From assembly GCF_000315915.1 (NCBI RefSeq), contig NC_020189.1:372001-436000 (forward strand): a stretch of DNA of 64,000 nt, written 5' to 3'. The translations under genes were made by a program, and so were the position numbers. The stretch's first letter is position 1; the number at the start of each line of letters is the position of its first letter. The stretch comes from Henningerozyma blattae CBS 6284 (lineage: Eukaryota > Ascomycota > Saccharomycetes > Saccharomycetales > Saccharomycetaceae). This document shows positions 18,921 to 51,059 of this stretch, piece after piece. The notes under the pieces are model-generated. The model saw nothing but the letters and a program-made list of their open reading frames with translations, was not told the origin of the DNA and did not search any database.

Positions 18921-19976
18921 ATGACTAGCCCCACATCAGTACTATTAGTAGGGGGATCAGGTTTCTTAGGCTTACACCTAATTGATAAATATTATGCGTT
19001 ACAACCAAGACCAGAAATCCATATCCTAGATATTAGACCAATCCCTCGAAAAATTAATCTAAAACAATTTAGTTTTGATCCTAAAGATATTCATTTTCAT
19101 AAGGGTAATTTGACTTCTCCTGAGGAGGTCGAAGATATTATTCGTAAATCAAAATGTGAGGTTTTAGTTCATTCAGCTTCTCCAATACATGGACAAGAAT
19201 CCCACATTTATACTACAGTTAATGTTAAGGGGACACGTAATTTACTAGATATTTCGAAAAAACTTGGAATTCGCGCATTTGTATATACATCCTCAGCTGG
19301 TGTTATATTTAATGGGCAAGATATACATAATGGAGATGAGACTTGGCCAATTCCAGAAGTACCTATGGATGCCTATAATGAAACTAAGGCCATTGCAGAA
19401 AATATGGTATTAGAAGCTAATGATGAAAAATCTAATTTCTATACAATTGCTCTAAGGCCAGCAGGGATATTTGGTCCAGGTGATAGACAATTAGTACCAG
19501 GATTGAGACAAGTAGCTAAACTTGGCCAATCTAAATTTCAAGTGGGAGACAATAATAATCTTTTTGATTGGACATATGTTGGGAATGTGGCTGATAGTCA
19601 CGTCCTTGCGACCCAAAAGCTTCTAGATAAAACGACATGTTCTAAAGTCTCTGGTGAGTCATTTTTTATTACTAACGATACTCCTTCTTATTTCTGGGCC
19701 TTAGCAAGAACAGTATGGAAAGCTGATGGTCATATTGATAAACGAATAATAGTGTTAAAAAGACCAATTGCCATTTTAGCAGGCTATCTATCAGAATTCT
19801 TCTCAAAATTACTTGGGAAAGAACCTGGGCTAACTCCATTTAGAGTCAAAATTGTGTGTGCGTATCGTTATCATAACATATCAAAAGCTAAGAGACTATT
19901 GGACTATCAACCTAATGTAGATATTGAAGAAGGTATTAGAAGAACACTATTATGGATGGATGAAGGATTAGAATAA
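18921..19976 (+). CDS. ERG26: C-3 sterol dehydrogenase (C-4 decarboxylase) of ergosterol synthesis
   Basis: NAD(P)-dependent dehydrogenase that, with Erg25, Erg27 and the scaffold Erg28, removes C-4 methyl groups from sterol intermediates at the ER. At 351 aa it matches Erg26 (349). The Rossmann motif GGSGFLG is at residues 11-17. The short-chain dehydrogenase catalytic pair is seen in DAYNETKA (YxxxK, about residue 154), with the preceding serines in VYTSSAGV. The 3-beta-HSD family signature ALRPAGIFGPGDRQLVPG follows. In S. cerevisiae ERG26 (YGL001C) is the gene next to CEN7, with its start facing the centromere. Confidence 0.96.
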   Translation: MTSPTSVLLVGGSGFLGLHLIDKYYALQPRPEIHILDIRPIPRKINLKQFSFDPKDIHFHKGNLTSPEEVEDIIRKSKCEVLVHSASPIHGQESHIYTTVNVKGTRNLLDISKKLGIRAFVYTSSAGVIFNGQDIHNGDETWPIPEVPMDAYNETKAIAENMVLEANDEKSNFYTIALRPAGIFGPGDRQLVPGLRQVAKLGQSKFQVGDNNNLFDWTYVGNVADSHVLATQKLLDKTTCSKVSGESFFITNDTPSYFWALARTVWKADGHIDKRIIVLKRPIAILAGYLSEFFSKLLGKEPGLTPFRVKIVCAYRYHNISKAKRLLDYQPNVDIEEGIRRTLLWMDEGLE

Positions 19977-22593
19977 AGATAAGGCTCTGTTACCTTTTTA
20001 TTTAAAAAATTTTTTTCTCCTCACCAAATATTACAGTTTTAATTTACTTTTATACATTCTGTGCTTTCAAATATATATGGCTCCCCCTTATTCTATTTTC
20101 GATATTTTTTTAATTTCATGTTTATTACTGACAACATAAGGGAAATAGAGCAAAACATTTACTGTATTATGTATCTTTTATTTGTAGGAAGCTGTTTTAT
20201 GCAGACTATTATACCTTATTTGTAGAAATAATTGTGTTTACTAGTGCTAATTTCATCTTATTGATAGATTTGAACTGAGTTCGATAATAATTTAATATTT
20301 GCTATATTTATATTTTCAAATACCCAAAGGTTAAAACAAAAAAGTAGAGAATGTTAGAAGAATTTTATTACATAAAGATAATATTGTAGTCCATATTTAA
20401 AATGTTAGTTATGTTCTAAAGTGTTTAAAACTTCGTTTTTTATCCATAATTAGTTGGAAGAATATAATGTGAGTGTTTACTTAGCATCTATTATTCAACT
20501 TCCTGCCATAACTAATTATAATATTTGATGAGATCAATATTAGCAGCACTACCAACAACAAATTTCTTCAGTTATTTAACCGATTAAACTATATACTCTA
20601 TCTTCTTAAAGGGTAAAATAGTTTTTTCTATAAACTTGAAATATATAGAAAGCTTCCTCTAGTATTAAATATTGAATATTAATTTTGAATTTTTTAAATA
20701 GTCATAACTGTCATCAAATTTTTTTTGGTACTTTTCTACTTTAAATTCCAAAATAAGTTTATTATCACTTGTTAAAAAGTTATTACCATGAAAATTATAT
20801 AATTATCTAAAATTTAATTAGTTACAATTTTTAAGGGGGTGTAGAAAAATGAAACCCCATTGGGAGGATTACTGTATATTTTACGACATTAGAATCCTTT
20901 GTATTGGTATTATTGTCAGTTATAGGTTAAGAAATAATTCTGTTTAAATTAGTAGTTAAAATATAGAAACCCCCTACTCTTTTGAAAAGGAATAAAAAGT
21001 AAATAAAATACAAAAATTTGATGTTAAATAAAAGGTTGGTGCTAGATATGGTCTTTATAGATACAACAGTAGATATACTGGTTTAGGATAAAAGATAGTA
21101 TAACGTAAATATACGTTGCTAATAAAAACCCCAATTAGAAAATTCGTTGTCGTTAATTAATTACCATCATGTAGCTTCTACAGAATATACTAAGCATGAG
21201 AGGCACATAACTCTTGTGAGGTTAATTAGGTGAAAATTGTTCACTTAGAGATGACTATGAATTGACTTCTCTTGTCCAAAAAAATAATGTATAAATTGCC
21301 AATATTTCAGTCGACATCTAATCTTATATATTTTTATATATTTTCTATAATTGTTATTCCTACTCAAAAAGCTAGGAGGTGTCTATACTATAAACAATAT
21401 ACAAAAAAAGAATTATTCTCTTAATTAGGACTAACAGCAATACTAATATTAAGGATTCTAATGTCGTACAGTTCGCAATTTATATATTTTGTTTTTAGAC
21501 AAGAGAAATCAATTCATTGTCGTCTATAGATGAAACATTTTTCAACCAATTAACCTCGCAAGTGTTGTCTGGCTCTTATGCCTAACATATCCCGTAGTAG
21601 TTACATAATGTACTCTAGTTACCGGTAATAAATTATCTTATTAGGGATTTTACTTGTAACATATATTCATGTTATACCCTCTTTTATCTTGGATCAGTAT
21701 AACTACTCCATTATGTATAAAGACTATAAAGATCGAACATATATCTTAGTATTAGTATGTAGTTGGTTAGGTTATGCTCGGAAAATGTTTCTTAGGTTAT
21801 AGTAATTAAATATATTGTATCCTAATTTTCGGAAAATTCTTTATAAATTAGTAACTCCTAAACAAAATATAAAAAACATAAAATTTTAAAATACATCTTT
21901 AACTTCAAACAATTTTATACAACGTTAGAAATAGCAAGAAATATAGTTGTTAAATAAATAAATAAAGATATATTATTATTATAATTATTATTTGTCGGAT
22001 CTTTATGTATTAACTATTCTTATAATTGTCCTCCTCTAGCTAAATACGTATATAAAACTACAGAAGTATATAAAAGGGAGCTCTATTTTGACCAGCGGTC
22101 GAACTGTTCAAAATATTGTTGCTCATAGTTTAATTCTTAGTTAAGTAATCTGTTTGAATAATTATTATATTATTATTAAAAAAAACTCCTTGCTTCTTTC
22201 GAAAGGGAATATATAATATATACAGGATATACAATGAACAGTTATAAACTTTTGGGATATTTTCGTGGTAATTTATACTCCAAAAAATGGGCAGATCCAC
22301 CATCAACGAATTGATGGTCTGATATTAAAATAGAACCTATCACATCCTAATACCTTCTTAATATCACTACTTGGGTATTTTTAGTAGTGAGGCCACGTAT
22401 GCTTAATGCATGTTGGATTATTTATTACATTAAGTTGTTATTAGTTGTTGTATAAAGCCACAATTACGACAAAATTCATACTTTATTAGCTGTTAACACA
22501 AACCCACGACTTATGACACATAATTCCACAGCTCTGAGATATTTATATTCCGAGAAATGCAGGTTGTATAAAAATATCACTTAGTACGTAATA

Positions 22594-22676
<83 letters not shown>

Positions 22677-23467
22677 GTTAAAGATAGAGTAAGTTGTGAT
22701 TAAAGAATAATTATAAGTGACAAACAAGAGAATAGAAATATAATTAATAAAAATTGAAGGAAGAGTGGCAAAAACCAACATTAGTTTAGATTCTACATTT
22801 AAATACTTAGTTATTAAGATCATAGATGCACTTCTAAACTATATGTCAAAATTGGAATGCAATTTTCAGAGTCATTCGTTTCATAACTATAAAAACGATT
22901 AATAGATATATCGAAAACAAAATATTGCGTTTTAAGAGATAGTTAACATAATTTTCACCATATAAGATATAAATTGGGTCTATTTTTATAGAATCAGAAG
23001 TGTATTTACATATTATTTAGGGACAAGTTTTTTTAAAAAGAATGTGACTGGCTTAATAAACTCAGACATAAATATTGAACTATGCTACAGATCTGATACA
23101 CTTATTATTTTTTTAAATAACCTAATTTACTAAAGAGATTAGCCATACTAATTAATATCTGAGATTTTGTCTTACATTTTACAAAAAATTTAATGTTCCA
23201 AGCATTAATATATTTGCGTCACTTTAAACTTTTCGAGGCTCGGCTTGGTAATTTAAGTTAGTAGGCTCTTAGTTATTTCCGACTATATATCCAATTAGGA
23301 CCAGTTCAGATAAAGTCTCCAAACAATGAAGAATTCATTGGTAATAATAATCACAATATATAAAAAAATGAATACAAAATCAGTTAACTTTCTTAAATTA
23401 ACAGGGAGACTGAACTTCAGCACTTAATTCATAACGACTTTACCAGTTCTTCTAATAGGGTATCACA
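19977..23467. other. gene-free AT-rich stretch between ERG26 and the DUP-family gene
   Basis: About 3.5 kb with no ORF of note and no recognisable tRNA or LTR. It holds a long ATT microsatellite (listed separately) and a TTTTCGGAAAATT motif at about 21831-21843 that recalls a CDEIII core but has no CDEI partner. Confidence 0.5.
22597..22676. repeat. (ATT)n microsatellite
   Basis: About 26 uninterrupted ATT/TTA units over 80 bp, in noncoding sequence. Such a tract is likely to vary in length between isolates. Confidence 0.95.
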
Positions 23468-24157
23468 ATGTCGACGGCTAGTTCCACTCTCAAAAGTTCC
23501 CCATTTTCACAACTACCAACTGAAGATATACTAACTGTGGTTTTACCAAGAGATAGACGTTGGTGGCTCTACTACTATTTAAGATTTTTAAATAAATCAT
23601 GGATTTTTAGAGCAATTTATATAACTCTGATTTCGTTATTATTGCTATCATGGTGGACTGACAGTGATGAGCTTAAGGTATTATATGGCTTCCTTTTATT
23701 TTTTGTAGCAGTATTTGGAAGTCTGATAAGTGCTCTATTACTGTCTATAAACAGAATGAAGTATTTAATGGGCACCGAAGGACAAATGAAATTGTTGGCT
23801 GAAGTAACGAAATATAAACCAAGTCTCTATATAGAAAAGTGGGATCTGATTGCCTCTCATTTAAATGATTACCTTTACGAGATGAATGCTTTTCCGGACA
23901 GAGAGTTTTTTTATAATGGAAAACAGTGCATGCATCTTTTTCAAGGTATAGTTTCTACAAATAATACGTTACCAAACGGTTCTACTGACCCTGAAGTTCA
24001 AAATTTTGGCAAATATCTTGAACTTGCAAGAGAAGTGCATAAGGACTCTATTGATTTATATTGGGCATCCCATTATCCGGAACTTGCAATAGCTGATTTG
24101 GATCAGGGAGCTTCCGAATCGAATATTGAGAATTTAGATTTCATAACTTCGAAATAG
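23468..24157 (+). CDS. DUP240/COS-like membrane protein
   Basis: A 229-aa protein with two adjacent hydrophobic segments, at about residues 47-63 (AIYITLISLLLLSWWTD) and 70-93 (LYGFLLFFVAVFGSLISALLL). A cytosolic region follows whose W..IA.HLN.YLYEM.AF...EFFYNGKQC...F pattern (residues about 124-162) matches the signature of the yeast DUP family (DUP240 and COS/DUP380 proteins). S. cerevisiae members such as Mst27/Mst28 and Prm8/Prm9 act in COPI/COPII vesicle traffic, and COS proteins help sort membrane cargo. This protein lacks the C-terminal KKxx signal of Mst27/28; it ends ITSK. Family assignment is by motif; no exact orthologue or function is claimed. It stands alone in gene-poor DNA. Confidence 0.7.
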   Translation: MSTASSTLKSSPFSQLPTEDILTVVLPRDRRWWLYYYLRFLNKSWIFRAIYITLISLLLLSWWTDSDELKVLYGFLLFFVAVFGSLISALLLSINRMKYLMGTEGQMKLLAEVTKYKPSLYIEKWDLIASHLNDYLYEMNAFPDREFFYNGKQCMHLFQGIVSTNNTLPNGSTDPEVQNFGKYLELAREVHKDSIDLYWASHYPELAIADLDQGASESNIENLDFITSK

Positions 24158-24285
24158 TATATACATAATCTGTATATTTTCTATATATTACAACAAAATA
24201 TAATGATTACGTCATTACAGCTACAAACAGAAAAAAACTGAAAATATAAAATGAATTTTTAATTTTTCAATTATGTAGGCATTCT

Positions 24286-24683
24286 CTAAATATAATTATT
24301 TAATACTTCAGTTTGAATGAATTTTTCTGACAAATATTTTAATTGCTCGAACACTTCAAAGAAGTCATTTCTGTCCCCAAGATATGGATCTTCTACAATA
24401 TCATCATAATCACTACCTACGGGATTCCAATTGCCAAACAGGTATATTTTTGATAAATTCTTATTAGTCCCCTTAGATTTTAGATATTGGTTTTCAATAT
24501 CCCGAAGATCAGAAATATTTGAGTCATCCATCCCAATTATATAATGAAATTTTTCAAAATCTTCATATTGTATCTGTCTTGTGCTCCCATTTTTTTTATC
24601 ATATCTATAAATATGGCTTGTGCCATTGGAGAGCGACAATAATTACCTAAACATATGAACAAAACATTTTTTTCCCCTGACAT
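24286..24683 (-). pseudogene. LTP1: broken low-molecular-weight protein tyrosine phosphatase (LTP1)
   Basis: Two ORF pieces on the minus strand make up an Ltp1 relic. The first starts at 24683 (MSGEKNVLFICLGNYC...) and keeps the P-loop CLGNYCRS, the CX5R catalytic signature, then runs out of frame and stops at 24537. The second, in another frame to 24286, keeps YIIGMDDSNI, LFGNWN and the general-acid motif VEDPYLGD. The switch occurs at an A8 tract (T run 24590-24597). Compared with S. cerevisiae Ltp1 (161 aa), about 40 residues between the P-loop helix and the QI..(E)DF..(Y)IIG segment are also missing, so a single base error could not explain it. It is probably dead; the retained motifs suggest recent decay. 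Confidence 0.75.
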
Positions 24684-25200
24684 TTCAAAAAAATTTAATT
24701 TAGTAAAGATTGGGTGTAGATCATTAGCTGAAGAGAATATTAACAGAGGAATCCCAAATATGCTCCAAACTTCGAAGACCACTTATTTACCTAAAGCTCA
24801 CAGCTAACATTTATTATTTGACATGCTCGCGGCAATCTATAGATGCCGTGCAAGTGTGACCTGAATACACTGTAAAGTAAAGTGTCAAAAAATCTGTTTA
24901 GTAAATGACATAAAAAACAACAACCATATTTCTCACCTATTATTATCTGCCATCTAAATTTATTTGTTTTAAAGGCTGATTTTCTATTTTGCATAACATA
25001 TAGTTAGACATAACAAGCTGTTGAGATTTGAAGCAAAATATTTTATGGATAAAATTAACTGATAATATCGACATTTCTTCAAATAGTCCCATAATATATT
25101 TATATTTTTGTACAATATTTTAACGTTCTATAATATAGCACATCCTGTTTAATGAAGTATATTTTCCTAAAAACAAACCTCTAAAATATAAAATAAGAAT
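24684..25200. other. gene-free stretch left of the candidate centromere
   Basis: About 520 bp, AT-rich. A 67-codon minus-strand ORF (24791-24994) has no recognisable features. It would include whatever promoter LTP1 had. Confidence 0.4.
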
Positions 25201-25422
25201 ATCGGTTCGGATATCTAAATAATATCTAAAAAGAAGAAAATCAAAACAATTCAAATAGAAATAATTAGTTTGGAATAGAAAATAACATAATAAAATGTTA
25301 ATATTAAAAATATATAGAATTAAATAAAATTAATTTTATTATAGTATAAAGTTAAATAAAGTATTAAAATTATTATAAATAATTAAAATAAAAGTTTAAA
25401 TTATTTGTATGTAGCACGTGAT
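25201..25422 (-). other. candidate point centromere (CDEI-CDEII-CDEIII-like)
   Basis: Read on the minus strand: ATCACGTG (25415-25422) is an exact CDEI (RTCACRTG). About 190 bp follow with roughly 89% A+T (21 G/C by hand count), like CDEII, and then TAGATATCCGAACCGAT around 25200-25216, with the CCGAA core of CDEIII but a poor match outside it (TATCCGAAC instead of TTTCCGAAA). Position is the main support: in S. cerevisiae PMI40, NUG1 and PAC2 lie just right of CEN5 in the same orientation as here, with only MNN1 and NOP16 between CEN5 and PMI40, and this site lies just left of PMI40. ERG26, next to CEN7 in S. cerevisiae, is on the other side. The spacing is longer than the S. cerevisiae CDEII (about 80 bp). 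Confidence 0.35.
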
Positions 25423-25936
25423 AGATGTTTCTTTAGGAGGTATTTCTTTAAAAGATGGAAAATATACTAGCTTTTGGAAGATATTGTGTAGACAATTAAT
25501 TTAGAGAGGTTTAATGAAGCATATTTAATGTTAAAATTTTATGCTTCTCCTTAGAGTCTTTATTAATATCTACATGTAAAAACTTAGTAGTTATGTACAC
25601 TAAGTGTACTTCTTGAAATTTTTCAAAGATCATTTATCATGATAGTTTACTCTAATTTTATAGAATATTTTTAAAATTTGAATGCCTATTGAAGACCATG
25701 AAGAATAAAAATTTATTGGAAAACTGCTTTGATCTTTAATTTACTTTCCACCCTCTTTCGAGATATTCAAATTCAATTTTAGTTTTATTTAGACATTTAG
25801 AGCATCTTAGAGAAACAAGAATAACTTATATAAAAAAAACAGTAATAGAGGTAAAAAAATCATACAGTTAAAAATAAATAAAGGTAAAAAAGCATACAAT
25901 TAAAAATAAATAATGTCAAGCCAATTTTTGTTCATT
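25423..25936. other. stretch between candidate centromere and PMI40 3' end
   Basis: About 510 bp without a gene. It holds the PMI40 3' end signals. Nothing else is recognised. Confidence 0.4.
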
Positions 25937-27565
25937 TTATAAAGTTGGTTCAACAAAAGCTCTGTAGGTAGTGAAATATGAGTCTTCAGCTTCCAATTCA
26001 ACTGAAGTATTTGGTGCAATAAAGAAAACAAAACCTGGTTCAGCTTTCAATTTTTGAGAACCATTGATAACGTAACCATTACCTTTAGTGGTAATCATAA
26101 TACTTGGTCCATCTAAACCATTGAATTGTCTTTTACCTAATGACTTATCAAAAGTAGTTTGGATGATAGCAAATTCATCTATAGGTGGATTATATAGGGT
26201 AGCTTTACCAGCACCAGACGACTTTTTGTCAAATGCTTCTAACTTCATCTTTTGTTCGTCAACTGGGTCGTAAGAGTAGGTTAACATTTCAACTAAATTC
26301 TTAACATCCTTGAATTTTGGAGTGAAACCAGCTCTAACAACATTATCAGAAGCTGCCATACATTCAATGATATCACCATTGATATAAGCATGAGGATCTT
26401 TAGCTCTCAAGAACAAAGCTTCACCTGGTTTTAAGGAACAATGGTTCAACATTAAACCACCGCAGAATAAACCAATATCATTTGGGAATTGCTTATTTAA
26501 TCTAATTAATAATTCTGGTAAATCCTTTTTGTTAAAATCACTTGGAGAAGTCTCAGCTCTTTTAATTAATTTCTTTGAATTTTCAATAATCTTTTCATCA
26601 TCAGCATTCATGACTTTACTGAAAACAGCTTGTAATAATTTCTTGTTTTCAATATCTTCCTTAGAACCCTTCTTAGCGTTGATATCAATTTTGTTAATAA
26701 ATTCATTTGAAGTTTCTTCACCAACAATATTAGTAAATTCTGGAATACGTTTTAATTCATCTGCAATTTCATCTAATGGCTTGAATCCACAAAACCCTTC
26801 GAAATCAGTAACAGCAATTGCCATTTCTGGTTTGTGGTTATCATCTGGATAATTTTTTGGATCTTGGGCACGTAAAATCTTACCCAAAGCTTTATCAGGA
26901 TGAGCTTGAATTGATAACACCTTTTCAATAGACAAAACTTTAAATAAGAAAGGAACTTCATTGGTAGATTGAAATTTATTAATAATATCTTTACCCAAGT
27001 ATTGTTCAGGGTTTGATGCAATGATGTCTCTTAAAGATTCCTTAGTTTCATGGTTGAACGATGGAGTCTTAGAATGAGTACCCATCCACAATTCAGCATA
27101 TGGTTTAGATTCATCGATCTTTATGCTTGGATCAGAGTGACTAGCAAATTGAGCTACAGCAGAGGAAGAACCAATCTTACCCCAGTCATATTGTTGATAA
27201 CCTGTTTAAACGGAATTACAATTCGATTATTTATTATTAAACCATAGTTTAACAGCTAATTTCCTTAGTAATTATTTTCAAATTTTACATAACACAAATT
27301 GCTCAGACTTATTTCATTTTATAATAGCACCAAAAGAGGTAGATAAAACCAATCAAAAATGAGATAAACCATGGATAATTATGATATGAAAATTTTTTGA
27401 ATATTCAAGAAATAGTTGCTAAATTATGATAATAATAATTATTTTCATAAGGGATTGTTAGTATTAAGTAGTCTTTGAGATTAATTGTAAATCGAAGAGA
27501 AGTAAAAAAAGAAGTAACCTATTTTAAGACATACCAGCATCTAATCTAAAGACTTTATCACTCAT
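25937..27565 (-). CDS. PMI40: mannose-6-phosphate isomerase, two exons
   Basis: Interconverts fructose-6-phosphate and mannose-6-phosphate, supplying GDP-mannose for glycosylation and cell wall; zinc enzyme, cytosolic. Exon 1 is 27565-27535 (31 nt, MSDKVFRLDAG begins here) and exon 2 is 27201-25937; joined they give 431 aa, against 429 in S. cerevisiae, whose gene also has an intron at this point. Exon 2 opens YQQYDWGKIGSS. Family motifs include ELWMGTHSKTPS, LSIQAHPDKALG and KDPHAYINGDIIECMAASDNVVRAG, with zinc-binding His/Glu residues. Without the intron the ORF would start at the internal Met of LWMGTHS (27091) and lose the conserved N-terminus. Confidence 0.95.
27202..27534 (-). other. 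PMI40 intron (333 nt)
   Basis: 5' splice site GTATGT (27534-27529) and 3' site AACAG (AG at 27203-27202). A canonical branch site TACTAAC is at 27463-27457, but it is about 255 nt from the 3' site with AGs between. A non-canonical TACTAAG at 27270-27264 is about 60 nt away, a usual distance. The splice keeps the GGT glycine codon of LDAG-YQQ intact. Confidence 0.9.
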
Positions 27566-28498: not shown

Positions 28499-29251
28499 TC
28501 AATTCTTCGGCGAACGAATAATATTAAGTAGATATTTTTGAACGGCACCCCAATAACACCCTCTAGATAATATGGTACTAGCAGCCATTTGAGGATCCAA
28601 TTCACTAACTAATGCCCATTCTTGCCTTGTTAAGAATTTAAATTCGTCCACTAATGCTTTAGCATATTTTTCTAATTTAACCTTATCACACTTAACCTGG
28701 ACACATATATCCAATAACTCTCCAATAATTTCTTGAATTTTTGTATAATCCTGGAAGTACATATGCTTCCTAATCCAAATGAATACTTTATGACCATCTA
28801 TAGACTTCAATCCGGATCCAAATTGTACCTCTAACTTATTCTTATATTCTTTGGAGCATGTGTTCAAAATTAGCTTTATTAAAGTATTACTCATGAGCTC
28901 TTTTAACATAATATAATTCTCATCTTCATTTGAAATATTTAATGAATCATGCCTAAAATCACCTCGAATTAGATACTGATACCAGAACGTGCTGACTGAA
29001 GAAGTGTGCAGGATTATATCTCGATACCATATATGGAAAGTTTCACTTGTGTCCAGCTTACCTTTGAATGAAAATGGTGAAATAATTTGATTGTTTTCTA
29101 GCTTCTCGCTTAACTTTTTAATTCCTTTATGATTATTTTTGTTATCTAACTGCTGCTCTTCTATTAAATAGTATTTTTTACCATCAATATAAGTAAAATT
29201 ATTTTCTAAATCAATTTGAAGACCTTTCGAAGTACGAACTATAAATCCCAT
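28499..29251 (-). CDS. isolated gag-like protein (Ty1/copia Gag-type fold suspected)
   Basis: An intact 250-aa ORF with no S. cerevisiae counterpart recognised. From residue 60 its pattern resembles copia-type Gag/UBN2 capsid domains: F.GKLD.SETFHIWYRDI..., FWYQYLIRGD, then IKLILNTCSKEYKNKL, VFIWIRKHM, KIQEIIGELLDIC, and LEKYAKALVDEFKFL. These are conserved aromatic, TCS and long helical positions. There is no CCHC zinc knuckle, protease, integrase or reverse transcriptase, and no LTR was found next to it. It sits where FMP52 and YND1 lie in S. cerevisiae, between PMI40 and NUG1. It may be a domesticated Gag or a relic whose ORF happens to survive. The family call rests on pattern only. Confidence 0.5.
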   Translation of the reverse strand: MGFIVRTSKGLQIDLENNFTYIDGKKYYLIEEQQLDNKNNHKGIKKLSEKLENNQIISPFSFKGKLDTSETFHIWYRDIILHTSSVSTFWYQYLIRGDFRHDSLNISNEDENYIMLKELMSNTLIKLILNTCSKEYKNKLEVQFGSGLKSIDGHKVFIWIRKHMYFQDYTKIQEIIGELLDICVQVKCDKVKLEKYAKALVDEFKFLTRQEWALVSELDPQMAASTILSRGCYWGAVQKYLLNIIRSPKN

Positions 29252-32119: not shown

Positions 32120-33694
32120 ATGAGGTTTCAAGTTGGTGAACGATTAGTATTAGAAAATGAATATTGTACTGTTAAATATTATGGGTTTATCGATGCATGG
32201 CCAAATATACCAACTTATGGTATTGAGTGGGATACAGTTACTCGAGGGAAAAACTCAGGCTCGTTAAATGGTAAAAAATATTTCTCAGTATCTCATACCG
32301 GCGCAGGCTCTTTTATTAAGGAAACAAAACTTACTAGACTTGTTTCCAAACGTTACTCTTTTTCAAATGCTACAAAAGCCAGATATGGAGACTCACTAAA
32401 AAGTATTGGCGAAATAAAGTTTGGGAGTAAAGCCTGGGAAGGCTATGGCTTTGAAAGGTTAACAGAACGAAACAACAACATTAGTGAACTAGAGACTGTA
32501 GTACTACATGCTTCGTCTATATATGACACATTATTGCCTGATACTAAAGATGCTTCAAACAATTCTGAGGTTATATTTTTAAAGACGTACTGCTGTAATA
32601 TCAAAACTTTAGATTTATCGTCTAACTTGTTCCATAACTTTGAAACAATATGCGAGATTATAAGCTACTTACCAAAGTTAAAAAAGGTGGATTTATCTTG
32701 TAATAGATTCAACGAGTTTCCTAATTTTCAATTCTCTAATTATAATTTTGAGCGTATTGAAAATTTAAACCTTTCTTCATGTAAATTACCTCAGTCAATT
32801 CTATTGAATATAATCGAGTCGTTTCCGAATCTAAAAGTCTTGAATTTGACAGATAATGACATTTCAGACACTGTATTAGAGAAAATTAATTTTCCAAAAA
32901 CTTTGAAGAGTTTAACACTGTCAAATAATTTACTCCACAAATTCCCCAAGATTGATGCCCACACTTTAACGAATTTAAAAACACTAAATATACCATCTAA
33001 TAAGTTAGAAAGGTTAGATGCTTCTCAGTCAAACGTATTACAGAATATAGATATTTCAGATAATAAGATTAAAAGCATGTCATTTTTAGATAAATTGAAT
33101 GAGCAATTCCCTAACTTATTGTCTTTACGCTGTAATGTTGAGGATCTTTTTAAGATTACTTCTGATGTAAAATCAGATGACTACCGAGATGCTAAGCATA
33201 TCTTTATGGAAATTATTGCAAGATTTAATTCAATTAATACCTTAGATGGATCTATGCTTGATAACAATATCCGCCAGGATGCTGAATTATATTTTTTATC
33301 TCAAGTACAACATAATAAAATAAAATTTCCTGAAGGTCTACGATGGAAAGAATTATGCCAAAAATACAATATTAAGGCAACTAATAATAAATTTAAGCTT
33401 CTACCAAAATTAGACCAGTCAATCATCAGGCTTCGAATAGCCTCTGATTCTAATCAATTGATCAAAGAAGAAGAGAGTATAATTGTACTTGAGTCAGCCT
33501 CGATAAGATATTTAAAAGGAATTATTTGTCGGAGGTTGAACTTATGTATATACAATGTGGACTTATCGTATAAACTATCAACAGGGGTGGTAGGGAAATT
33601 TGACAAAGAATTTTATCTCATAAGAGACTTTAATATCCAAGATAATGACCTAATTATTATTAGTCTTAAATCGGAGGGTGTAAAAACAAAATAA
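32120..33694 (+). CDS. PAC2: tubulin folding cofactor E
   Basis: Cofactor that binds alpha-tubulin and helps assemble tubulin heterodimers. At 524 aa it is near Pac2 (518). An N-terminal CAP-Gly domain (residues 1-75) shows YGIEWDTVTRGKNSGSLNGKKYF, with GKNSG in place of the usual GKNDG. Leucine-rich repeats run from about 150 to 340 (IKTLDLSSNLFHNF, LKKVDLSCNRFNEF, LKVLNLTDNDISD, LKTLNIPSNKLERL). A C-terminal ubiquitin-like region ends the protein (IIVLESASIRYLKGIICRRL). Synteny with NUG1 agrees. Confidence 0.93.
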   Translation: MRFQVGERLVLENEYCTVKYYGFIDAWPNIPTYGIEWDTVTRGKNSGSLNGKKYFSVSHTGAGSFIKETKLTRLVSKRYSFSNATKARYGDSLKSIGEIKFGSKAWEGYGFERLTERNNNISELETVVLHASSIYDTLLPDTKDASNNSEVIFLKTYCCNIKTLDLSSNLFHNFETICEIISYLPKLKKVDLSCNRFNEFPNFQFSNYNFERIENLNLSSCKLPQSILLNIIESFPNLKVLNLTDNDISDTVLEKINFPKTLKSLTLSNNLLHKFPKIDAHTLTNLKTLNIPSNKLERLDASQSNVLQNIDISDNKIKSMSFLDKLNEQFPNLLSLRCNVEDLFKITSDVKSDDYRDAKHIFMEIIARFNSINTLDGSMLDNNIRQDAELYFLSQVQHNKIKFPEGLRWKELCQKYNIKATNNKFKLLPKLDQSIIRLRIASDSNQLIKEEESIIVLESASIRYLKGIICRRLNLCIYNVDLSYKLSTGVVGKFDKEFYLIRDFNIQDNDLIIISLKSEGVKTK

Positions 33695-45596: not shown

Positions 45597-48500
45597 TTAT
45601 TTCGAATCGTCTTCCTTTAGCTTTTTGGCAGAGGATGAATCTTCTGAATCGGAATCATCATTGATTGGACGTTTCAATGGGCTTCCTTCTCCCATTTTAT
45701 CCCCTTCTTGTGATGGAGTTTCGGTTGTATTCTCTCTAGTAGATAATAGATCATCTTCTGGAACTTCAGGGGTCTCTGTAGGAGTGACAGACTCTAGCGG
45801 TTTTATAGCTTGTTCTACAGTAGGGGTAGTAGGCTTCATCGCCATAACGTTGCCAAATATATTCTTAGAGGTACCATTTTGATTAAAGACATTAGATGTT
45901 GTCGCCGATGATGAAAATGGATTGAAATGCATTGGAGAGCTAGAAGTTTGTGAGACTCCTAAACTAAATGGGTTTTGAACAATTTCAGTATCTTTAGATG
46001 ATTGTGAGGTATTGTTTGAACTGCTTGAGAATCCTTTATTAGCATTTAAAGAGTTAGTTGTATTAAATCCTCCAAATGAAAATGCAGGTTTTTTTGCAGA
46101 TGGAGGTTGGATTGAAGCTAATGTTGAAGTTTGGGCCAAGTCAGATATAATAGGGTTTTTGTCTGACTGCTTATCATTTTCAATGGCTTCTGATAATTGA
46201 GATTCAAGTTTCGATATTTTTCTCTCTAAGAGGGTTGTTTTCATTGATGATTGTTGCTTACCTTCCTCAAAGGATTTTTTCTTGGCCTCATTTAAATCAT
46301 TTTCAAATTTAATTAGCATATCTCTCTTCACCTCTTCCTTAATTTCTTCACGTAATTTACCAGGATCAATGGTCTCTATTGAATTCCTATTTGCTTCTAT
46401 TTCATTTAGTTTTTCTTGTAGCTTAACTTCATATTCATTTTCTAACTCATGCTTTCTTTTTTCAATAACTCTATTAATCTTAGTTTCTGATGGTAATCTA
46501 ATACGTTTCTTCAACGTTTCCTTAGCTTCTTCAATTCTTTCCAAGGTAGCTTTTTCATACTCTTCTTCCCATTCTTTTTTCAAGGATTGAAATTCTTCAA
46601 TTTTAATAGATTGGTCAGTCCGAGCTGATTGGAGGTCTTCTATTTTCTCTTCATATTCTTTAAGAAGCTTATCCTTTTCTAATTTCCATTGCGCCTCCAA
46701 CTCGTTAGTTTTATCTTCCAGTAATTTAAGTTTTTCCTCTTCAAACTCTTTCTTCATGGATTCGATCATAGCATTCATTGTAGAATCGGTAGAATCAGAA
46801 CCAATAGCGCTTAATTTCGACTGAGCTTCTACTAATGATTTCTTTAGGCTATCAACTTCATCAGTTAACTCCATTTTTTCTTTTTCTGAGGATAGTTTGA
46901 AGGAGTTATTTTCTGTCTTTAAGGCCTTTAATTCAGACTCGATATTAGACAATTTTTGTGTGTATTTAACTTCATTATCACTTAGTGTATTTTGTAGATC
47001 CATTGATTTCTTTTGTTCGCTAGACAGTGCCAATTCAATATTTGTATTGGATGCTTTCAGTTCATTTATTTGCTTATTTAATGAACTTTGTATTTCCTTA
47101 GAAGCATTTAATCTTTCATGTGCTTGTTTCTTTAATAAGTTAAACCTTTCTTCTAATTCTGCGTTTTGCTTTCTTTTAGTTTCAGCGTCATCTTTCAAGG
47201 CGTCAAGCTCAGTAGATAACTTTGAAACTGAATCAAGATCAACCTTATCTATTTGAACTGACAACTCCTCAGCGCGTAATCTCCACTTATTACTTTCTTC
47301 TTTAATTAGCATGATGTCAGTTTCCTTATCACCCAGAGATTCCTTGACGGATTTTAATTCCATACTTAAGTTACTTAGCTTGCTATTTTCTTCATTTAAT
47401 TTTGTTTGTAAAGTCTTGTTCTTCTCATTAAGTTCGCTCACCTGGTTTCGCAAAGTCTCATTACTTTCTTTAAATAGGGTTATTTGATTTAATTCGGATA
47501 CAATTTTCTCATGATTTTCAATTAAATCTGAATGTCTCAGTAATTTATTTTCAGAAGATATTAATTTCATTTGAACGTTTGCCAACTCATCTCTCAAAGA
47601 CTCTAATTTGCTTGCATTATTCTTAGAATCTCTTTCAGCTATGGATAACTTTGTTTCTAAAACGTCCCTATCAGCACGAAGTCTATTGAACATGTGCTTC
47701 GTCTCAGAAGATAGTTGAGAACTATCCATGCTAGAAAAATCTTTGTTGAGTAATTCTAATTGATCGACATACAATTTGTTTTGATTAGTTAAATTATCAA
47801 TTTTCTTCTTGGACTCTTCAAGGTCAGAAATAAATGCATCTTGTTTTTTTTTCCATAATGATTCGTTTTCCGATAATAGACTTGTTTTCTTTTCCAAATC
47901 AGATTCTATTATAACAATACGTTGATTTAATTTTTCAATTTGCTCCTTGAACTCTTCGATAGACTGTAGATTGGCATTATCTTTTGTTAATAGAGATTCA
48001 TATTTCTCTTGTGCATTGTCTGCAAATTTTGCTTTTAATTCAAGTTGTGATTGCAGTTTTGAAATTTTTTCTTCATACTCACTAGCAGTATCAGCGGAAT
48101 CTTTTTTAAATTTGTTTAAACGGGTAATTTGAACATTTAATTGTGCTATCTCTTCAGAATATTTATTTTTTTCATTCTTTAGGTCAGTTGATAATTCGGA
48201 TATGCGTTTGTCATACTCGCCAGTTGAAGCTTTTAACGTTTCATTTTCGCTTAACAGCTTAGAGATTTTATCATCCATTAAATTTTTAACACTTTCAAAA
48301 TTACTCTCCAAAGTTTTTAAGGATTCCTCTGTTGAAGTGTATAGTTGTTTGTATTCCTCTACTTGAGTGTAAGCTTCTGATAGATGTAGCTTTGTAATAT
48401 CTAAGTCTTTCGAAATTTGAGAAAAATCGTTACCTGAGGATGAGCATCTAGTGTTGGTATCTATTGTGTATGACTGGCTTTCTAATAATTCTATCTTAGT

Positions 48501-51059
48501 ATTGAGGTCTGATATTAATGAATTTTTGGAGGTTAGCTCAGTCTTTATAGCCGAGTTTATTTTTTTTAAATCATCTATGGTATTTTGGTACCAAGTACAT
48601 TGCGATTCATTTGATATAGATAGCTTCTGAATTTCTGTCATTTTACTACCCAGGTTTTTAATTAGATCTAAATTGTTGTTTTCTAATTCATGTATCTTAG
48701 ACATGAACTTTTTTTGAGTATCATCCAATAAGGTCATTCTTTCATTCTGTAATGACTGTAACTGTGAAAGCATTATTCTCAATTTATTTTTTTCCTCAGA
48801 AGTTTTTATTAGCTCAGAATTCAAACTATCTTGAGATTTAACTAAGAAATCCTTTTCAGATTTCGCAATTGATAATTGTGTTTTTAAATTTGAAATTTCA
48901 GTTTCACCTGTTATGTATTTATTAATTATATCACCTAATTTTGATTCTTGCTTAATAATAATATTTTGTAAATTTTCAAATCTTTTATTCAATTCTTTAT
49001 TTTCAGTTTTTAGCATATCAAATGCACTTTCAGTCAATGATATTTTTTCTGCCATTAGTGTATTTGATGATTTTTCTTTTTCTAAGCTAATAGTCAAATT
49101 TGATTTATCAGCTGTAAAAGAGGCAATTTGAGACTCTAATGCATCTTTATTTTTTTTTAACTCAGCCTTCAGTTCCTCTATGAGAGTTTGTAATTTTTCA
49201 ATAGATTTCTCATTAGTTTCTGGAGATGTAGAGGATGATAAATCGTCGTTCTTTATAGATGAATCGATAGAAACGTTATTATTTAACAAAAGTTTAAAGC
49301 TATCACGTTCAGCTTCCAACACCTTTACTTTAGATTCAAGGATATCATTGTGATACTGTAATGTTAAAATAGCTTCTTTAGCATCTGCAATAGTTTTATT
49401 TTGGAACTCTTTATGAGAATTAGCATTTTCGATATTTTCCAAATTTTCTGACAGGCTTCTAATTGAATTTAATAATTCCATATTTTTTGCTTGTAGCTCT
49501 TCGATATTTGAAAATGTCACTAATCTCTCAGAGATAACATGCTGGGATGTAAGTTCTGAACCATTCAAATCCTCGGAGTTATTTGATATTTTATTAATAA
49601 ATTCTATTTCCTCTCTTGTTAATGGGCCACCTGAGTCATTCTTAACAGCTACAAATAATAATAAATGTTTCACCTGATTAGCTAAATCCAACCTCTGTCT
49701 GATTAACTCTTTAATATTAGATTGATAGGTCAATAATTTTGAATCGTAATTGTTTAGTTTATTCTGAATAGTATTTTTTTCGTTAGAGGTCTTATTTAGT
49801 AGCAATGTTAAATTTGTTAATTCATTTTCCAAAGCCTGGTTTTTCTCTTGAAAAGAAGAAATGATTGGTATTTTATTTTCAAGTTCAATAATGAATGATT
49901 CAATTTGAGTTTGTAGATGTTTTTTTTCCAATTTTTCCTGTGTAACCTGTTTCTTTAATAAATTAATTTTTGAATATAAAGTAGGTAAGTTTGAATCAAT
50001 AGAACTGGAATTATTAGAATTATTTTGTTCATTACTCATTTGATTTATCATAGAATTCAAATTAAAGTTTTCATTTTGTAATTCTTCAATTTTTAAAGTT
50101 AAATCTTGAATATCGCTTTTTAAGGTTTCATTTTGAGACTCTAAATCAGGAAATTTTGTAAACTTAGAATTTAATTCTACATTTTGTCTTAGTTCTTCTT
50201 GAGTTGAGCTTAATTGGCCCTGTAAAAGATCAATTAATTTAGACTTCATGGCTATTTCTTTGTTCATATCATCTTTAGTAACTAGTAAATTATCTTTTAA
50301 GTTTTTAATTTCCCATATGGAATTTTCATATTTCTTTGTCAAGTCATTATTTTTATCCGAAAGCACAGATACCTTAGCTTCCATTGACTTTAAAGTTGTG
50401 GTTGCCTCTTCTAATTTTATAGTTGAATTATTTAAATTTTTTTCCAGTAATAATTTTGCTTTATTAAACTCTTCTTTCTCTTTCAGCCACTGTTCACTTA
50501 GTGAGGATTTATTTTCATTTAAAAATGTAACCTCTTGTTTCAGTCTTTGAATTTCTGATTCTCTAATAGATAANNNNNNNNNNNNNNNTACATAATTTAA
50601 TTTTTCTGTCTCAAAGTTATTTGAATTATTTTTCCAATTTTCTAACTCGATGTTTAAATTACTTACTTTAAGATTCAAACCTTCATTTTTTATTTTTAAC
50701 TCATTGAATTGAGTCTCATATCCATTGACCTTATCAATTAATTCTTTCTTTTCAGTTTCAACTGTAGCTAATTTTCCACCAAGACTCGTTAACTTATTAT
50801 CAGCCAAGGTTTGCAATTCATTTATATCGTTTGAAACTACATTAGATTGATCTTTTGAATTCCTTAATTCATCCAATTTGTCTTTCACTGCAAGGATCAA
50901 GTCGTAATCAGTAGTATGCAATTTTTCTAATGGTACATCTAATATTGAACTAATTTGTAGTAAAATAGTTGAATCATGCCTATTTTCAGAATTGGAATTC
51001 TTGAAACTTGAATCTAAAGTATCTGCTTCAGAAGTTCCGTTGCCATCTGATTCACCCAT
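45597..51059 (-). CDS. MLP1/MLP2: nuclear-basket coiled-coil protein (Mlp1/Mlp2, TPR homologue)
   Basis: Filament protein of the nuclear-pore basket; Mlp proteins retain unspliced mRNA, anchor Ulp1 and influence telomere and gene positioning. At 1820 aa it falls between Mlp2 (1679) and Mlp1 (1875). Residues about 60-1600 are almost continuous coiled coil rich in Leu, Lys, Glu, Asn and Ser. A Lys/Arg-rich segment (ETLKKRIRLPSETKINRVIEKRKHE, split here for length: KKRIRLPSETKINRV) near 1490 is the conserved TPR/MLP region. The last 220 residues are unstructured, Ser/Thr/Asn-rich with GG-type and acidic parts and a basic KKLKED end. A 15-base N run breaks the sequence in frame near residue 160. 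It is the only MLP gene in the window. Confidence 0.93.
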   Translation of the reverse strand: MGESDGNGTSEADTLDSSFKNSNSENRHDSTILLQISSILDVPLEKLHTTDYDLILAVKDKLDELRNSKDQSNVVSNDINELQTLADNKLTSLGGKLATVETEKKELIDKVNGYETQFNELKIKNEGLNLKVSNLNIELENWKNNSNNFETEKLNYVXXXXXLSIRESEIQRLKQEVTFLNENKSSLSEQWLKEKEEFNKAKLLLEKNLNNSTIKLEEATTTLKSMEAKVSVLSDKNNDLTKKYENSIWEIKNLKDNLLVTKDDMNKEIAMKSKLIDLLQGQLSSTQEELRQNVELNSKFTKFPDLESQNETLKSDIQDLTLKIEELQNENFNLNSMINQMSNEQNNSNNSSSIDSNLPTLYSKINLLKKQVTQEKLEKKHLQTQIESFIIELENKIPIISSFQEKNQALENELTNLTLLLNKTSNEKNTIQNKLNNYDSKLLTYQSNIKELIRQRLDLANQVKHLLLFVAVKNDSGGPLTREEIEFINKISNNSEDLNGSELTSQHVISERLVTFSNIEELQAKNMELLNSIRSLSENLENIENANSHKEFQNKTIADAKEAILTLQYHNDILESKVKVLEAERDSFKLLLNNNVSIDSSIKNDDLSSSTSPETNEKSIEKLQTLIEELKAELKKNKDALESQIASFTADKSNLTISLEKEKSSNTLMAEKISLTESAFDMLKTENKELNKRFENLQNIIIKQESKLGDIINKYITGETEISNLKTQLSIAKSEKDFLVKSQDSLNSELIKTSEEKNKLRIMLSQLQSLQNERMTLLDDTQKKFMSKIHELENNNLDLIKNLGSKMTEIQKLSISNESQCTWYQNTIDDLKKINSAIKTELTSKNSLISDLNTKIELLESQSYTIDTNTRCSSSGNDFSQISKDLDITKLHLSEAYTQVEEYKQLYTSTEESLKTLESNFESVKNLMDDKISKLLSENETLKASTGEYDKRISELSTDLKNEKNKYSEEIAQLNVQITRLNKFKKDSADTASEYEEKISKLQSQLELKAKFADNAQEKYESLLTKDNANLQSIEEFKEQIEKLNQRIVIIESDLEKKTSLLSENESLWKKKQDAFISDLEESKKKIDNLTNQNKLYVDQLELLNKDFSSMDSSQLSSETKHMFNRLRADRDVLETKLSIAERDSKNNASKLESLRDELANVQMKLISSENKLLRHSDLIENHEKIVSELNQITLFKESNETLRNQVSELNEKNKTLQTKLNEENSKLSNLSMELKSVKESLGDKETDIMLIKEESNKWRLRAEELSVQIDKVDLDSVSKLSTELDALKDDAETKRKQNAELEERFNLLKKQAHERLNASKEIQSSLNKQINELKASNTNIELALSSEQKKSMDLQNTLSDNEVKYTQKLSNIESELKALKTENNSFKLSSEKEKMELTDEVDSLKKSLVEAQSKLSAIGSDSTDSTMNAMIESMKKEFEEEKLKLLEDKTNELEAQWKLEKDKLLKEYEEKIEDLQSARTDQSIKIEEFQSLKKEWEEEYEKATLERIEEAKETLKKRIRLPSETKINRVIEKRKHELENEYEVKLQEKLNEIEANRNSIETIDPGKLREEIKEEVKRDMLIKFENDLNEAKKKSFEEGKQQSSMKTTLLERKISKLESQLSEAIENDKQSDKNPIISDLAQTSTLASIQPPSAKKPAFSFGGFNTTNSLNANKGFSSSSNNTSQSSKDTEIVQNPFSLGVSQTSSSPMHFNPFSSSATTSNVFNQNGTSKNIFGNVMAMKPTTPTVEQAIKPLESVTPTETPEVPEDDLLSTRENTTETPSQEGDKMGEGSPLKRPINDDSDSEDSSSAKKLKEDDSK
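50574..50588. other. assembly gap (15 N)
   Basis: Fifteen N bases inside the MLP coding region. The frame is open on both sides, so the gap length is compatible with five unknown codons; the true length is not known. Confidence 0.99.

Follow-up and report, generated by a model that had tools for sequence, protein, structure and literature searches.

The element at positions 25197-25422 of the analyzed window, on the minus strand, is very probably the point centromere of the chromosome represented by contig C5 of Henningerozyma blattae CBS 6284. The window is the whole stretch of 64,000 nucleotides under analysis (C5:372001-436000), in an assembly of 14,041,469 bp and 10 contigs (C1-C10). The original prediction of a point centromere at this site is strongly supported by sequence comparison, because a shared motif was found at one site on 8/10 contigs, the same motif set recurring once each on C1-C8. 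The architecture is that of a classic, short point centromere, except that the A+T-rich middle is unusually long.

The element in the window

By the S. cerevisiae convention, CDEIII comprises 26 bp, with TCCGAA beginning at base 12. The parts of the element, together with a conserved stretch next to it, are as follows:

25415-25422, minus strand: CDEI, ATCACGTG, a Cbf1-type site and an exact match to RTCACRTG, read directly
25223-25414, minus strand: CDEII, 192 bp, 89.1% A+T, with CDEIII counted as 26 bp as in S. cerevisiae
25197-25222, minus strand: CDEIII of conventional length (26 bp), in which TCCGAAC occupies 25205-25211
25172-25196, minus strand: conserved 3' extension of CDEIII, in which the C5 copy departs from the consensus at several places

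A direct re-reading of the minus strand bears out the three parts that had been claimed, i.e., an exact CDEI, a spacer of about 190 bp with about 89% A+T, and a CCGAA-containing element. TCCGAA is read at 25206-25211 on the minus strand, within TCCGAACCGATAT at 25199-25211, and the minus strand from 25211 downward is TCCGAACCGATATTC. The spacer from TCACGTG to TCCGAA is 203 bp long, with 89.2% A+T.

Each of the two motifs alone is common: RTCACRTG occurs 13 times in the window, against a shuffle mean of 4.6, and TCCGAA 23 times, against a shuffle mean of 18.75. Their combination is not common. Among the ~63,800 stretches of 195 bp in the window, only 10, beginning at 25210-25219, reach the A+T content of 25219-25413 (89.7%). 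When a CDEIII profile was built from the other seven copies of the element described below, the C5 site ranked first among 127,940 window positions.

Sister copies in the genome

We searched the whole assembly for the two-motif pattern TCACRTG-N{185,215}-TCCGAA, with the reversed pattern as a control. The pattern had 26 matches, compared to 4 for the control. The A+T content of the spacer was at least 86% in 8 matches and at most 80.5% in the other 18. The eight A+T-rich copies, all matches to the two-motif pattern, are distributed one each on C1-C8, the window copy included:

C1, 1784387-1784601, minus strand: pattern match with A+T-rich spacer
C2, 1284706-1284923, minus strand: pattern match with A+T-rich spacer
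C3, 109490-109702, plus strand: pattern match with A+T-rich spacer
C4, 1063632-1063844, minus strand: pattern match with A+T-rich spacer
C5, 397206-397421, minus strand: pattern match with A+T-rich spacer, the window element
C6, 64503-64720, minus strand: pattern match with A+T-rich spacer
C7, 179034-179250, plus strand: pattern match with A+T-rich spacer
C8, 682088-682306, plus strand: pattern match with A+T-rich spacer

The motif spacing is 200-206 bp across the eight copies, and CDEII, delimited by convention, is 189-195 bp long with 87-92% A+T, in a search that permitted a 31-bp range; thus, CDEII length is near-uniform within the genome (n = 8). The presence of TCACRTG in 8/8 copies follows from the construction of the search, and the preceding A/G is found in 6/8, the copies without it being those on C4 (CTCACGTG) and C6 (TTCACGTG). 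Four of the eight copies have the CACATG form of CDEI. A comparison of the other chromosomes had been proposed with the original prediction, and it was positive for the shared motif on 8/10 contigs.

In favor of a chance encounter between a Cbf1-type E-box, A+T-rich DNA and TCCGAA are the high frequency of the single motifs and the CDEIII of the C5 copy, which is the weakest of the eight. Nevertheless, such a coincidence is exceedingly improbable, given one copy per contig, the constant spacing and a common extended CDEIII. In 140 Mb (ten genome-sizes) of simulated DNA, we found the pattern 68 times; spacer A+T content reached 76% at most and was never at or above 86%. The order-3 Markov model behind the simulation was trained on the window and so fails to reproduce DNA that is locally A+T-rich. 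The chance that 8 random sites fall on 8 different contigs is 0.009, and that they fall exactly on C1-C8 is 0.0006. A looser pattern, with CCGAA, had 51 matches, compared to 22 for its control; among the extra matches, most of which were judged on 80 letters, only a second element on C1 was recognized as A+T-rich with a matching CDEIII.

The genes next to the sister copies were compared to those at S. cerevisiae centromeres. The main C1 copy is flanked by genes for a PHO80-like cyclin and an RRP6-like exonuclease, a pair that we take to mark the position of CEN15 in S. cerevisiae. The C3 copy has a DEG1-like pseudouridine synthase on one side and, on the other, a protein that matches nothing in Pfam; the latter is presumably LOC1, and the DEG1/LOC1 pair would then mark the position of CEN6. 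Trehalase (C6), an ATP synthase delta/epsilon subunit (ATP16-like; C7), dynamin (C8) and a septin at a distance of 3.9 kb (C4) presumably fit centromere neighbors on one side only. No recognized gene was found within ~4 kb in the flanks of the C2 copy. The strands of the C1 and C3 copies agree with those given in Table 1 of Gordon 2011 (CEN15 minus, CEN6 plus; PMC3141009).

A species-specific CDEIII with a 3' extension

The eight sites and the second C1 element align gap-free, with CCGAAC invariant in 9/9 and TCCGAAC in all eight main copies. Allowing at most 3 mismatches, TCCGAACYRATWTTATNWGTTAAAA was found at 8 places in the assembly, compared to 1 for the control; these are 7/8 main sites (the C5 site is missed) and the second C1 element. 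The C5 copy is the most diverged CDEIII of the eight main copies: leave-one-out scores were 22.7-34.9 bits, the lowest (22.7) being that of C5, which is weaker in its 3' half.

The information in the alignment, in blocks of 10 nt starting from the T of TCCGAA and running to offset 39, was 20.4, 9.1, 7.7 and 7.4 bits; past offset 39, it was 1.1-4.0 bits per block. The null for these values was obtained from randomly placed blocks (20,000 draws), with a mean of 3.2 and a maximum of 6.9. Because the block information to offset 39 exceeds the null maximum, the alignment indicates that CDEIII conservation is extended by ~25 nt past the conventional 26-bp end. This extension may reflect either a wider CBF3 contact or homogenization between centromeres.

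These comparisons change the standing of what had been listed as weak points. The poor CDEIII match outside CCGAA is real in that the C5 copy has the lowest score of eight, whereas the departure from the S. cerevisiae CDEIII is the norm of the species. Similarly, the spacer is about twice as long as in S. cerevisiae (192 bp versus ~85 bp), and this is likewise the species norm. The description of the site as an atypical centromere was not sustained: a long spacer (CDEII of 189-195 bp in eight copies) and a divergent CDEIII are the norm in this genome.

Flanking genes and synteny of the C5 site

The following features flank the element in the window:

18921-19976, plus strand: ERG26-like gene, 3Beta_HSD
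20879-22540 (C5:392879-394540), left of the centromere: dispersed LTR-like repeat relics, several pieces among at least 80 matches listed
23468-24157, plus strand: DUP-family gene, Pfam PF00674
24289-24782, minus strand: decayed low-molecular-weight phosphatase gene of the left flank, two LMWPc pieces in different frames
25937-27085, minus strand: main exon of PMI40, right flank
28499-29251, minus strand: Ty5 Gag N-terminal family ORF of 250 aa, between PMI40 and NUG1, Pfam PF17241
30096-31655, plus strand: NUG1-like GTPase, right flank, GN3L_Grn1 and MMR_HSR1
32120-33694, plus strand: PAC2, right flank, CAP_GLY and LRR domains, tubulin chaperone E and Protein PAC2 chains

On the right, the proposed assignments to PMI40, NUG1 and PAC2 fit; we take the GTPase to be NUG1, and the order of the three genes is that found to the right of S. 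cerevisiae CEN5. Read by eye, PMI40 appears to extend to ~27565, with a short first exon (MSDKVFRLDA...) that an intron separates from GYQQYDW; the S. cerevisiae PMI40 is not known to have an intron. NCBIfam gave housekeeping names only. On the left, the proposed decayed gene is confirmed as the phosphatase relic in two frames at 24289-24782. The gene at 23468-24157 is not SPO7, since Pfam gives the DUP family; genes of this family are often subtelomeric in S. cerevisiae. Farther to the right, an 1820-aa ORF (45597-51059) contains XXXXX over a 15-base N run from 50574, which is either a gap in the assembly or sequence that was withheld.

The plus-strand gene at 18921-19976 fits 3Beta_HSD and is presumably ERG26, which we take to be a CEN7 neighbor in S. 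cerevisiae. The gene had been offered as support from synteny, and its identity stood while this use of it did not: ERG26 is not same-locus support, because the ancestral centromere behind CEN5 is not the one behind CEN7. According to Gordon 2011, CEN5 derives from ancestral CEN7 and CEN7 from ancestral CEN4, and Table 1 of that paper pairs CEN5 with CEN9 and CEN7 with CEN1 (PMC3141009). Thus, only the right flank of the C5 site fits CEN5, and the left flank is from the CEN7 region. In the same table, CEN5 is on the sense strand (PMC3141009); the C5 element, by contrast, is on the minus strand although PMI40 again lies to its right, i.e., it is flipped compared to CEN5. This arrangement is most simply read as the outcome of a translocation or an inversion that broke the chromosome at, or close to, the C5 centromere; on this reading, the breakpoint would lie in the stretch that now holds the LTR-like relics, the DUP-family gene and the dead phosphatase gene. 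Gordon 2011 describes other yeast centromeres that have such breakpoints or a changed orientation (PMC3141009).

The LTR-like relics are situated 2.6-4.3 kb left of the element, as might be expected if the element itself belonged to a dispersed repeat (e.g., an LTR) that carries the motifs. This explanation is extremely unlikely, since an all-against-all BLAST of the eight 3-kb loci found similarity only inside the element (pieces of 34-200 bp, 69.5-85% identity), and none of the 80 LTR-like matches listed, from a search in which 40/166 candidates were scored, overlaps the element. A repeat scan of 19900-26000 detected no repeat centered on the element.

Another explanation is that the C5 element is an inactive former centromere and that the active one is elsewhere on the same chromosome. 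A weaker 3' half of CDEIII and rearranged flanks with LTR-like relics and a dead gene are compatible with such a relic, and C1:20998-21219 may be a relic of this kind in the same genome. Conversely, pattern searches of C5 revealed no further two-motif element with an A+T-rich spacer, and we consider the relic very unlikely. Pattern matches elsewhere on C5 are at C5:727131 (spacer 24% A+T), C5:406566 (69%) and C5:817212 (75% over the 80 letters viewed); a better element elsewhere on the chromosome, which had been named as evidence against the original prediction, was not seen among them.

Contigs C9 and C10

No convincing centromere-like element was found on C9 or C10 with two-motif patterns (spacings of 160-216 bp) or with CDEIII alone. 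Two C9 two-motif matches have spacers with 63-64% A+T, and C9:10903, C10:106215, C10:136374 and C10:404902 have 59-73% A+T, as judged on 80 letters only. The sole CDEIII-alone candidate on C9 was rejected, with 72% A+T upstream and no CDEI by the tested pattern, a pattern that also misses CACATG, which is present in four true sites. On C10, 42487-42506 is a two-mismatch match in the CDEIII-alone search.

C9 and C10 may be broken-off chromosome arms. The left end of C1 lies, by eye, inside a repeat-rich, adhesin-like reading frame; among the matches listed, its only close ones outside C1 are at the left end of C9 (96-99%, opposite orientation), and those on C3 are at 77-81%. At its right end, C10 is 99% identical to the left end of C3 (C3:1-715) over ~715 bp in the same orientation, and two places on C7 match at 64-66%. 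Plausibly, the assembly was interrupted by repeat genes, and C9 belongs with C1 and C10 with C3; alternatively, the shared ends may be recent paralogues. If C9 and C10 are chromosome arms, neither is expected to have a centromere, and the ten contigs would represent eight chromosomes with eight main centromeres. A repeat common to contig ends was considered as subtelomeric and rejected: with at least 80 dispersed matches listed, it is LTR-like and uninformative on telomeres. Rfam gave no match on six contig ends. The right end of C5 appears, by eye, to stop inside 18S rDNA.

A second element on C1

The second C1 element (C1:20998-21219, minus strand) consists of ATCACGTG, a 208-bp spacer with 85.6% A+T, and CCCGAACCGATATTATAATTTAAAA. 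Its CDEIII scores 32.3 bits, above the window copy. It has CCCGAA (CCCGAAC) where the eight main copies have TCCGAA, and its CDEII is 2 bp longer than any of theirs. A small gene with Pfam Thiamine_BP adjoins the element and looks like ECM15/YBL001C, which we take to be the gene to the left of S. cerevisiae CEN2. With the ECM15-like gene as reference, the strand of the element is the reverse of that listed for CEN2 in the Gordon 2011 table. LTR-like relics are found a few kb away (C1:23992-25007).

If C1, the largest contig, is correct as assembled, it carries two centromere-like elements, of which one must be inactive or weak. Alternatively, C1 is misjoined, and there would be nine centromeres on nine chromosomes. 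The text of the 2025 centromere atlas by Helsen et al. (PMC12925627) names the H. blattae strain as its one case of disagreement between the number of centromeres counted and the chromosome number reported; the atlas number agrees with PFGE. We put forward, as a tentative and rather doubtful possibility, that C1 carries two near-intact point centromeres, one of them just inactivated after a chromosome fusion, and that the CDEIII extension is a longer CBF3 contact. In the part of the point-centromere literature that was searched, no mention of the CDEIII extension or of the second C1 element was found, and either may be published.

Discussion

The organization of the H. blattae copies is shared with S. 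cerevisiae CEN1-16, which have the same order of CDEI, A+T-rich CDEII and CDEIII, and the same CCGAA core. There are two differences: (i) CDEII is ~85 bp long in S. cerevisiae (PMC12925627) versus ~190 bp in the H. blattae copies; (ii) the H. blattae CDEIII reads TCCGAACYRATWTTAT..., with conservation further 3' than in the S. cerevisiae CDEIII. The text of the 2025 atlas gives a CDEII of "nearly 200 bp" for H. blattae, at the top of its range; the length is the same as in our copies, and no difference from the centromeres in the atlas is established (PMC12925627). Since the CDEII length of 189-195 bp matches the atlas value, this kind of centromere is already known, and the C5 site is typical of the species; the C5 site itself is most likely already in print. 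An earlier survey gives a CDEII range of 70-170 bp (PMC4533239). For CDEII A+T content, the range in Gordon 2011 is 76-98% (PMC3141009), and the H. blattae copies (87-92%, C5 89%) are inside it. The unconventional point centromeres of Naumovozyma, as described in PMC4533239, are alike in being short, sequence-defined and found in related yeasts, whereas they are without regular CDEI and CDEIII. An unconventional centromere of this type is ruled out for the C5 site by the presence of both CDEI and CDEIII.

A Cep3 gene, another feature in common with S. cerevisiae, was found at C2:1655120-1656079 (Pfam PF16846, 62.6 bits versus a cut-off of 22.5). Cep3 is a subunit of CBF3, which consists of Ndc10, Cep3, Ctf13 and Skp1. 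By analogy with the established pathway, a Cbf1 dimer would bind CDEI, the CBF3 complex (Ndc10-Cep3-Ctf13-Skp1) would bind CDEIII via CCGAA, and the A+T-rich CDEII would wrap a single Cse4 nucleosome as the base for one kinetochore. Because a CDEII of ~190 bp exceeds one nucleosome wrap, some of its length may form a loop, or CDEI may be placed one turn farther around; both are speculation.

These results confirm, from sequence alone, a centromere model for a long-CDEII yeast. Two centromere-like elements on one contig would point to a faulty assembly or, alternatively, to centromere loss caught at a rarely seen stage. The CDEII of H. blattae is the longest named in the text of the 2025 atlas (PMC12925627), and a longer CBF3 contact, if true, may accompany this very long CDEII. 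The species is thus a useful extreme for the question of how a kinetochore on one Cse4 nucleosome copes with a CDEII of ~190 bp.
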